Assembly: GCA_937873695.1 (NCBI GenBank)
Contig: CALMYL010000014.1
Span: 1-61,666 of the forward strand
From: an uncultured Ignavibacteria bacterium
GTDB lineage: Bacteria > Bacteroidota > Ignavibacteria > Tepidaquicellales > OLB5
Length of the DNA stretch: 61,666 nt
Direction of reading: 5' to 3'
A program made the position numbers and the translations under genes. Under the pieces are notes generated by a model. That model searched no databases. It saw nothing but the letters and a program-made list of their open reading frames with translations, and was not told the DNA's origin. Positions 274 through 61,666 of this stretch are shown in pieces; within the stretch, counting starts at the first letter, position 1; each line of letters begins with the position of its first letter.

Positions 274-342
274 TTATGGGTGAAGCAGCTGGTATCCGCC
301 GACTGGCGGATCATAACCCGGAAAAGTAATCTCGTTTGAAAA
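274..342 (+). pseudogene. Decayed initiator tRNA (copy 1) carrying an inserted hairpin
   Basis: The stretch from 278 matches the D-arm of the intact tRNA-fMet at 1006-1078: GGGTG, one change, then AGCAGCTGGTA. After GGTA a hairpin ATCCGCC-gact-GGCGGAT (294-311) replaces the segment leading into the anticodon arm. The match then resumes with TCATAACCCG, which contains the CAU anticodon. A degenerate T-loop (GTTTGAA) follows, and the acceptor 3' strand is missing. No acceptor stem can form, so this cannot be a working tRNA. The GIY-YIG start codon follows directly. Confidence 0.85.
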
Positions 343-597
343 ATGTTCTTAGTTTATGTATTGTATTCTGAAAATTTTGATAAAATTTATATTGGAATGA
401 CTTCTAATCTTGAGCAGAGGTTATTATCCCATAATGAACTTTCAAAGAAGGGTTGGACTATAAAATTCAGACCATGGAAGATTGTTTATAAAGAGAGTTT
501 TAAGTCTAAACAAGAAGCTTTAAAAAGAGAGAAAGAATTAAAGAGTTTTCGGGGCAGGGAATTCATTCGAAATCAAATTTTAGGTAAAATTTCGTAA
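343..597 (+). CDS. Small GIY-YIG nuclease-family protein (copy 1)
   Basis: The 84-residue protein is a stand-alone GIY-YIG domain (UPF0213/YhbQ-like). Visible motifs are Y5-V-L and Y16-I-G18, the family Arg at R26, H30 with N31, and a conserved Glu at E58 in EALKRE. These are the expected metal-dependent nuclease residues, so it may be active. No DNA-recognition domain is fused. There is no Shine-Dalgarno sequence; the ATG abuts the T-loop remnant of a decayed tRNA-fMet. A TATAAT box lies at 248-253. The last codons run into the shared 50-bp block that begins the next unit. The cellular role of this family is unsettled; a homing-like or repair role is inference. Confidence 0.85.
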   Translation: MFLVYVLYSENFDKIYIGMTSNLEQRLLSHNELSKKGWTIKFRPWKIVYKESFKSKQEALKREKELKSFRGREFIRNQILGKIS

Positions 598-639: not shown

Positions 640-708
640 TTATGGGTGAAGCAGCTGGTATCCGCCGACTGGCGGATCATAACCCGGAAAAGTAATCTCG
701 TTTGAAAA
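640..708 (+). pseudogene. Decayed initiator tRNA (copy 2) carrying an inserted hairpin
   Basis: This is identical to the copy at 274-342, offset by 366 bp. It has the D-arm match, the inserted ATCCGCC/GGCGGAT hairpin, and a retained CAU anticodon followed by ACCCG. The acceptor 3' strand is lost. It lies between the first GIY-YIG ORF and the second. Confidence 0.85.
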
Positions 709-963
709 ATGTTCTTAGTTTATGTATTGTATTCTGAAAATTTTGATAAAATTTATATTGGAATGACTTCTAATCTTGAGCAGAGGTTATTATCCCATAA
801 TGAACTTTCAAAGAAGGGTTGGACTATAAAATTCAGACCATGGAAGATTGTTTATAAAGAGAGTTTTAAGTCTAAACAAGAAGCTTTAAAAAGAGAGAAA
901 GAATTAAAGAGTTTTCGGGGCAGGGAATTCATTCGAAATCAAATTTTAGGTAAAATTTCGTAA
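709..963 (+). CDS. Small GIY-YIG nuclease-family protein (copy 2)
   Basis: The protein is identical residue for residue to the one at 343-597, as part of the 366-bp tandem repeat. All GIY-YIG motif residues are intact, so both copies could be functional. A TATAAT box lies upstream at 614-619, and the ORF ends inside the 50-bp block that precedes the intact tRNA-fMet. Complete identity implies a very recent duplication or gene conversion. Confidence 0.85.
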   Translation: MFLVYVLYSENFDKIYIGMTSNLEQRLLSHNELSKKGWTIKFRPWKIVYKESFKSKQEALKREKELKSFRGREFIRNQILGKIS

Positions 964-1005: not shown

Positions 1006-1078
<73 letters not shown>

Positions 1079-1094
1079 CTAGAATAAAGAAAAT

Positions 1095-23389: not shown

Positions 23390-23565
23390 ATTCCCGCGCA
23401 AGCGGGAATCTCTTGCTTTATTCTAAAACAAACTTAATGAATTATAAATGATCTGAATTATTGATCTTGTCTTATGTTTCCTTAATCAGTTTATTCAGCA
23501 AACTTCGAATTTTCTAATCTTAAATCAGATAAATCTAAAATAGAGATTCCCGCTTGCGCGGGAAT
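23390..23565. repeat. Palindrome-bounded element between nuoD and nuoE
   Basis: A 176-bp segment is bounded by two 20-bp palindromes: ATTCCCGCgcaaGCGGGAAT at 23390-23409, followed by CTC, and ATTCCCGCttgcGCGGGAAT at 23546-23565, preceded by GAG. The ends are thus inverted repeats of each other and the inside is AT-rich and non-coding. A relative with the same end structure lies at 43640-43795. Confidence 0.75.
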
Positions 23566-43639: not shown

Positions 43640-43795
43640 ATCCCCGCGAAAGCGGGGATCTCATTTTGGAATAATAATAGATTATTAAATACTGCAATAA
43701 TGTTCCATCATATTTGAAAAATCTACTGAACGTTTTGAAGCCCACACCTAGGTGTAGAAATAAGTTAAATTAGAGATTCCCGCTTTCGCGGGAAT
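43640..43795. repeat. Palindrome-bounded element between two convergent genes
   Basis: 156 bp bounded by ATCCCCGCgaaaGCGGGGAT (43640-43659, followed by CTC) and ATTCCCGCtttcGCGGGAAT (43776-43795, preceded by GAG). Ends and the TTAGAGATTCCCGC junction match the element at 23390-23565, but the inner sequence differs. It contains a 12-bp palindrome ACACCTAGGTGT at 43743-43754. Confidence 0.75.
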
Positions 43796-61284: not shown

Positions 61285-61315
61285 GATTATATTATGCTGT
61301 TAATTTTTCTATTTG

Positions 61316-61377
61316 AGCGGGAAAACCCGATTTGAAATCTGCGACCAATCCCGCTTCGCGGGATGACTCTACCAACT
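61316..61377 (-). pseudogene. Decayed tRNA-Gly fragment with hairpin in place of the anticodon arm
   Basis: On the minus strand the segment starts in the D-loop (AGTTGGTAGAGTCA) and runs to the tRNA 3' end (CCCGCTCA), matching the intact tRNA-Gly at 61615 onward. The 15 nt of the anticodon arm (CAGCCTTCCAAGCTG in the intact gene) are replaced by 15 nt of TCCCGCgaaGCGGGA. The T-arm is degenerate. The stop codon of the GIY-YIG gene directly abuts this D-loop sequence, and the 5' part of the tRNA is absent. Confidence 0.85.
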
Positions 61378-61614: not shown

Positions 61615-61666
61615 AGCGGGAGACGAGACTCGAACTCGCGACCAACAGCTTGGAAGGCTGTGACTC
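61615..61666 (-). tRNA. tRNA-Gly (TCC), 5' part beyond window
   Basis: The visible part covers the end of the D-arm to the 3' end. Anticodon loop CTTCCAA on stem ACAGC/GCTGT gives anticodon TCC (Gly). The T-arm GCGAG/CTCGT has loop TTCGAGT, and the acceptor 3' strand is CTCCCGC. CCA is not encoded. The 5' acceptor strand lies outside the window. Confidence 0.93.

Follow-up and report, generated by a model that had tools for sequence, protein, structure and literature searches.

Integrative elements are known to enter tRNA genes, keeping a functional copy and leaving a displaced fragment behind. In the T-even phages, SegB is a free-standing GIY-YIG homing endonuclease that lies next to tRNA genes and, in the available portions of two reports, is tied to tandem amplification of a tRNA–nuclease unit with microhomology (PMC13096335, PMC2988022). 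PMC3984707 cites work on an intron endonuclease specific for the tRNA-fMet anticodon, and the REP/RAYT and REPIN systems comprise short dispersed palindromes, inverted pairs of these and a resident nuclease gene (PMC3116915, PMC2817692). The searched literature, which covers few subscription papers or preprints, yielded no bacterial GIY-YIG element that splits tRNA genes, and within the same coverage there was no joint mention of GIY-YIG with Ignavibacteria or with ‘repetitive extragenic palindromic’. Here, a very small GIY-YIG gene found at tRNA genes beside arm-swapped tRNA halves points to a selfish element that disrupts a tRNA gene but brings an intact one with it, and we consider it somewhat probable that this small stand-alone gene forms a homing-like, tRNA-rescuing selfish unit.

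The window, the whole stretch of 61,666 nucleotides that was analysed, is one entire contig (C14) of a source genome of 3.78 Mb in 30 contigs. On the minus strand at its end, a tRNA-Gly(TCC) gene, which is complete in the congener locus L136/L265 and here is cut at 61666, where the contig stops, is followed by a GIY-YIG ORF and then by a decayed tRNA-Gly remnant (Table 1). The ORF starts 4 nt past the 3′ end of the tRNA and its stop codon abuts the remnant, in which, on the right-hand side of the stem, 16 of the 31 positions aligned without gaps differ from tRNA-Gly. Where the intact gene reads GAGTC-ACAGCCTTCCAAGCTGT-TGGTCGC on the minus strand, the decayed copy reads GAGTC-ATCCCGCGAAGCGGGAT-TGGTCGC, a swap of exactly the 17-nt anticodon arm, shared A and T included. 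The first-pass annotation had described this exact-length exchange of the arm for a CCCGC hairpin, which is indeed present in the sequence; its coordinates of 61352–61366 are 3 nt too high, the palindrome lying at 61348–61364 of the plus strand with a 15-nt core at 61349–61363. It had also recognised the swap as sitting in a decayed copy, overlooking that this is half of a split tRNA gene: from its alignment, we take the remnant to be the 3′ part of the native tRNA-Gly gene, now displaced. Rfam found no group I intron core (RF00028) in the window, the ORF lies outside any intron, and between tRNA-Gly and the remnant there is no tyrosine or serine recombinase, the GIY-YIG ORF standing there alone.

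Table 1 Features of the window discussed in the text (positions count from its first letter)
Feature	Position	Strand	Evidence
Hairpin ATCCGCCGACTGGCGGAT in tRNA-Met remnant 1, replacing nt 22-32	294..311	+	
GIY-YIG ORF, first tandem copy at tRNA-Met	343..597	+	
Hairpin ATCCGCCGACTGGCGGAT again, in tRNA-Met remnant 2	660..677	+	
GIY-YIG ORF, second tandem copy (366-bp unit)	709..963	+	
Intact tRNA-Met(CAT), downstream of both remnant-ORF units	1006..1079	+	
Dispersed inverted pair of ATTCCCGC palindromes without ORF (MITE/REPIN-like)	23390..23565	.	
Second dispersed inverted palindrome pair without ORF	43640..43795	.	
Decayed tRNA-Gly remnant, D-loop to 3′ end, without 5′ end	61315..61376	-	Sequence comparison
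17-nt hairpin ATCCCGC-GAA-GCGGGAT replacing the anticodon arm (nt 27-43) of the tRNA-Gly remnant	61348..61364	-	Alignment to intact copy
GIY-YIG nuclease ORF, 77 aa	61377..61610	-	PF01541, 64.3 bits
tRNA-Gly(TCC), 3′ 52 nt	61615..61666	-	Rfam RF00005, 32.4 bits, truncated at 5′ end

At the opposite end of the window, two 366-bp units, each composed of a hairpin-bearing tRNA-Met remnant and a GIY-YIG ORF, precede the intact tRNA-Met gene. The source genome holds 11 PF01541 matches, eight of which also match a profile of the tRNA-linked proteins; six of these eight copies are spread over five tRNA loci, with two at Met and one each at Gly, Ile, Cys and Leu, and the other two are not beside a tRNA. 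A same-strand decayed copy lies within 1 kb (score at least 16) of 14 of the 44 tRNA entries in one remnant scan, with Gly a 15th recognised by eye, and 10 of these 15 remnant-bearing tRNAs are now without a nuclease gene; the opposite-strand control scored at most 12.5. The hairpins lie in the anticodon arm, the D arm or the T loop. A double hairpin, TCCCGAAGGGACTCCTTTGGAG, recurs in the T loop of several isotypes between TTC and GAA, and is found at 27 sites in the genome (up to 2 mismatches; control 0), nine of them in tRNA remnants. Arrays of tRNA remnants are often found where contigs of the source genome end (both ends of C14, that is, window positions 1 and 61666, together with C4, C13 and C22; loci L005, L007, L047 and L053), and assemblies therefore hide the full length of such arrays.

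A profile built from five tRNA-linked proteins matched in 50 of 59 genomes, the source genome being among the 59. We examined 95 matches from its relatives, an Ignavibacteria group, picked mostly by score from a longer list. ARAGORN placed an intact tRNA within the retrieved locus, no more than about 1.5 kb away, for 72 of the 95, on the same strand as the nuclease in 71 of the 72. The remaining 23 matches correspond to 21 loci, and an Rfam search of 17 of these plus L271 (18 loci) revealed tRNAs in six and group I introns in two. These introns adjoin tRNA-linked GIY-YIG genes (L117, 1831–2077; L271, 1937–2185), where the nuclease might support intron homing in trans. A single-protein scan of named genomes gave nine loci, eight with a tRNA and all eight on the same strand, from Ignavibacteria/Ignavibacteriales (L265, L266, L270), Neomarinimicrobiota, Portnoybacteria, Parcubacteria, a MAG labelled Rikenella and one further bacterium; the ninth, from Berkelbacteria, combines halves that resemble a tRNA with an intron. 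In the Neomarinimicrobiota locus there is a double hairpin at the TTC|GAA place, as in the T loops of the source genome.

To determine the polarity of the remnants, the flanks of 65 tRNA–nuclease loci were compared with the two ends of the neighbouring tRNA (24 nt at its 5′ end, 26 nt at its 3′ end). The 5′ part of the tRNA was found upstream in 29 of the 65 loci and the 3′ part in none, while the downstream flank held the 3′ part in 37 loci, the polarity also of the window remnant, and the 5′ part in three; above the threshold, an upstream 5′ remnant was absent in 36 loci and a downstream 3′ remnant in 28. Such polarity fits insertion into a tRNA gene and is not predicted by tandem duplication with random decay. 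The corresponding empty site is present in a two-contig congener (G009), where tRNA-Gly lies uninterrupted between tRNA-Thr and a small ORF, which we take to be ribosomal protein L33-like, followed by tRNA-Trp. In G011, which has the same gene order of tRNA-Thr, tRNA-Gly, small ORF and tRNA-Trp, the site is occupied by a hairpin-bearing 5′ part, an intact tRNA-Gly, the nuclease and a hairpin-bearing 3′ part. The intact tRNA and the nuclease gene thus sit between the 5′ and 3′ parts of the native gene, which is therefore interrupted although the locus still has a complete tRNA, and polarity and empty site together indicate that a unit of intact tRNA plus nuclease did the splitting. The same plan is found for Thr (L115), Asp (L132, L124), Asn (L189), Gln (L123) and Cys (L126).

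In three relatives without a profile match, same-strand tRNA remnants scoring at least 16 were found at 0 of 31, 0 of 35 and 0 of 35 tRNAs, with one tRNA of G052 reaching 13.1; among nuclease-positive genomes, the source genome had them at 13 of 41 tRNAs (the entries in the scan shared with the control genomes) and G009 at 5 of 42. For G009, G052 and G058, the scan took in most of their tRNAs. At L124, L136, L148 and L115, the remnant upstream of the intact tRNA breaks off at GTTC of the T loop and is joined there to a GTTCTTTAA leader resembling boxA; this fusion is a possible microhomology junction.

The displaced tRNA parts carry hairpins that replace, or lie inside, tRNA arms, and the units can be tandem, as they are in at least eight genomes. 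When inserts at the Gly and Asp sites were surveyed by anchoring on the flanks only, the Gly site over the source and other genomes gave six distinct non-intact inserts, all six with perfect 7–8 bp stems and four of them 17 nt long, which takes the anticodon-arm swap beyond chance. Their loops vary, and one C-G pair is changed to A-T. At the Asp site (nt 50–57), all eight inserts have the form TCCCG..CGGGA with inner pairs that covary in most, one being a longer compound insert, and the Pro hairpin, found in only 5 of the 59 genomes, keeps a constant 9-bp stem while three congeners show three different loops. Ile, Pro, Ser and Thr likewise have exact 26|44 swaps, as does, by eye, the tRNA-Gln of G009; the exchanged segment is not always a whole arm (Asp nt 50–57, Met 22–32, Cys 38–55). 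Perfect hairpins were detected in the remnants of 42 of 83 class-1 loci, on both flanks in 13, and the same search found none in the other 41.

Three genomes contradict the view that all remnant hairpins are copied from dispersed repeats. TGGCGC..GCGCCA occurs once each in G028 and G034, in the remnant only, and all six copies of TCCCGACAC..GTGTCGGGA in G009 lie in remnants of either tRNA-Pro or tRNA-Gln. Five of the six belong to a tandem array with a 111-bp repeat (L313), made up of five tRNA-Gln remnant units, where no GIY-YIG match was listed. The window hairpin is of the CCCGC type, but the derivation from a dispersed family proposed in the first-pass annotation does not hold in general given these locus-only hairpins, and from the sequences compared hairpin formation looks to be maintained, at least partly apart from dispersed repeats.

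The window ORF of 77 aa has a GIY-YIG domain over residues 2–70 that lies well above the PF01541 cut-off (64.3 bits against 22.6), and Pfam found no separate DNA-binding domain in it. The copy at L265 is 91% identical to the window ORF. In alignment A1, the tRNA-linked proteins, of about 77–110 aa, share invariant Y5, Y16, G18, R26, H30 and E62, presumably the catalytic positions of GIY-YIG, with the Y, YIG, R, H and E columns conserved; together with the PF01541 score, this places the nuclease in the GIY-YIG superfamily. Its best solved relatives are the UPF0213 protein BH0048 (1.4e-13) and SLX1 (1.6e-5), which works with SLX4 in eukaryotes. Features of a free-standing homing endonuclease are likewise found, namely a stand-alone ORF, occupied (G000, G011) and empty (G009) alleles at one place, and target-derived homology in the flanks (29/65 upstream, 37/65 downstream). 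I-TevI has a separate DNA-binding domain, and because the nuclease here is without one we describe it as probably working like a free-standing homing endonuclease rather than as a member of that group.

In a tree of 81 columns and 121 rows, from which rows shorter than 55 aa and identical rows had been dropped (126 to 121), nuclease lineages track tRNA isotype, with 43 label changes compared with 88.5 after shuffling and 0 of 200 shuffles as low. The clustering could reflect nucleases specific for their own tRNA gene or nucleases inherited with it, and under both it argues against a random hitch-hiker. A phage origin of the family was rejected, since only 5 of 50,697 phage records match, all below 40% identity, and the family here is cellular; nor is it supported as a defence gene, PADLOC giving only very weak matches to the candidate model PDC-S14.

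The same tree sets GIY-YIG proteins that are not at tRNAs, and are often bracketed by palindromes, in one branch with a support of 97–98, apart from the tRNA-linked ones. Palindromes lie on both sides of 10 of 36 loci of this sister clade (41 less five with tRNAs or with scores typical of the tRNA clade), compared with a background of 1.3% in the window to 2.5% in other loci, and judged by eye from their loops the upstream and downstream copies are mostly inverted relative to each other. Loci L195, L198, L201, L205, L219, L222, L223 and L191 are bracketed by inverted palindromes such as ATTCCGGCGAAAGCCGGAAT / ATTCCGGCTTTCGCCGGAAT. The sister clade has the look of a unit in the style of RAYT whose nuclease is unrelated. 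Both non-coding elements of the window are, as previously annotated, bounded by CCCGC palindromes in inverted pairs; they look like ORF-less versions of these bracketed units, and the first (23390–23565) probably belongs to the non-tRNA clade.

In the source genome, CCCGCN{2,8}GCGGG occurs 171 times, compared with six for the reversed control, and for at least 22 of the 171 sites a tRNA entry is no more than 600 nt away where 2.06 were expected, tandem copies not being independent. The correlation that the first-pass annotation anticipated between palindrome abundance and presence of the nuclease was found, palindrome density following GIY-YIG density across 59 genomes (rho 0.62) and the median count of TCCCGC/TCCCGA palindromes being 42 with the tRNA-linked clade (n=39) and 6.5 without it (n=20), both uncorrected for phylogeny. 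Read by hand, five of six within-genus or within-family contrasts run in the same direction, g13 being the exception, and G019 and G026 possess the nuclease with only two and five palindromes. The broader suggestion of a GIY-YIG–palindrome relationship is thus supported, but through a sister clade without tRNAs. Resident RAYTs do not obviously own the CCCGC palindromes: the Y1_Tnp genes of the source genome are flanked mainly by other palindromes, CCCGC forms appearing once or twice in L015 and L018, and the proposal that the CCCGC palindromes are their cognates was rejected. The several Y1_Tnp (RAYT-type) loci, L012–L018, each have their own palindrome family (CGACCCC/GGGGTCG, CGATGGGC, CCCACGG, GTGTCAGGTT, GTTGTTGG).

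We tentatively propose the following mechanism for the homing-like unit. The nuclease would cut the hairpin-forming arm of its cognate tRNA gene, and repair of the break from a donor, with the tRNA-derived flanks as homology, would copy in the nuclease together with the rescue tRNA. Loss of the unit would then cost the cell an essential tRNA, favouring retention by addiction to the rescue copy, and the repeats could amplify the unit in tandem, much as for SegB in phage T6. The nuclease may be a minimal SLX1-like, possibly structure-reading enzyme, and our best guess is that the hairpin is the unit's own end signal for it; such cis-acting ends might mark or bind the nuclease, or alternatively the hairpins might break up homology that would let the unit loop out. 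Several observations count against the homing-like reading. The rescue tRNA keeps the very arm proposed to be cut, the nuclease has no visible DNA-binding domain, and isotype fidelity fits plain vertical inheritance too; to these are added the hairpin-less loci (41/83), missing remnants (36/65 and 28/65), partial-arm swaps, nuclease-less remnants (10/15) and the few columns of the tree (81 for 121 rows).

Much of this could in principle be neutral debris, in which tandem tRNA duplicates decay, REP-like palindromes drop in and the nuclease gene is a hitch-hiker. The genome-wide dispersal of the palindromes, the plain tandem repeats and a T-loop double hairpin with only nine of its 27 sites in tRNA remnants are all in keeping with such an origin, but we regard it as rather unlikely in view of the strict end polarity of the remnants, the stems kept under variable loops with paired changes, the near or complete absence of the hairpins elsewhere in G028, G034 and G009, the lack of remnants in three nuclease-free relatives and the isotype-specific nuclease lineages. 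As the whole story, random tandem decay was rejected on account of the polarity. A different account, akin to RAYT and IS200, would have the GIY-YIG protein recognise DNA hairpins, cut at their base and move or copy them with the segment between two, so that tRNA arms are exchanged for palindromes. It would account for swap boundaries that coincide with the anticodon-arm base, at 26|44 in Ile, Pro, Ser and Thr and at 27|43 in Gly, and it draws on the 13 loci with hairpins on both flanks, SLX1 among the nearest solved relatives, the two-sided bracketing of the sister clade and the correlated counts. Set against these are the many swaps that do not match an arm, the several hairpins that are not dispersed, a count correlation uncorrected for phylogeny and a bracketed clade that differs from the tRNA-linked one, and we judge this account quite improbable.

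That remnant and nuclease share isotype and strand, with exact-length arm replacement in several isotypes, would also be expected of a toxin–antitoxin pair, in which the GIY-YIG protein cuts its cognate tRNA and a remnant transcript with an uncleavable hairpin serves as an RNA decoy, and the very weak PDC-S14 matches point the same way. Yet the remnants miss one tRNA end and their bodies decay while the hairpin stays, the Asp hairpin is often in the T arm, and GIY-YIG proteins are known as DNA nucleases, making such a pair very improbable indeed. A bolder form of the homing-like reading, which we think doubtful, is a new class of selfish element in which a minimal GIY-YIG nuclease would cut at the base of a DNA hairpin, split an essential tRNA gene within the anticodon, D or T arm, supply a rescue tRNA and cap both displaced halves with cognate hairpins that act as the element's ends; the same superfamily would also drive dispersed palindromes as RAYT does REPs.

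If the homing-like reading is true, essential genes of free-living bacteria would harbour a naturally occurring ‘break and rescue’ element, in more than one phylum and with a simple, testable enzyme. It would account for the tRNA remnant arrays that break assemblies, offer a route tying mobile DNA to tRNA genes, and add an unrelated nuclease to the candidates in the old debate over what mobilises short palindromes in bacteria.

The unit displays individual features of several known systems. Integrative elements that restore tRNA genes differ from it in that the unit here is about 0.3–0.45 kb, lacks an integrase, has a GIY-YIG ORF as its only gene and bears hairpins in the displaced parts. UPF0213/SLX1-like GIY-YIG proteins are the closest solved relatives of the tRNA-linked nuclease and, to our knowledge, are not known as tRNA-linked elements. 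Group I introns of tRNA anticodon loops, with their endonucleases, share the target region and lie beside the nuclease in L117 and L271, though none is present at the window locus. RAYTs are Y1/HUH transposases, whereas the window ORF is PF01541, with a putative link to mobility. SegB belongs to phages and sits between tRNA genes, and a split tRNA, a rescue copy and hairpin-swapped halves are not described in the accessible parts of its reports (PMC13096335, PMC2988022); as a stand-alone GIY-YIG nuclease that adjoins tRNA genes and forms tandem units, it is nonetheless the nearest known system.
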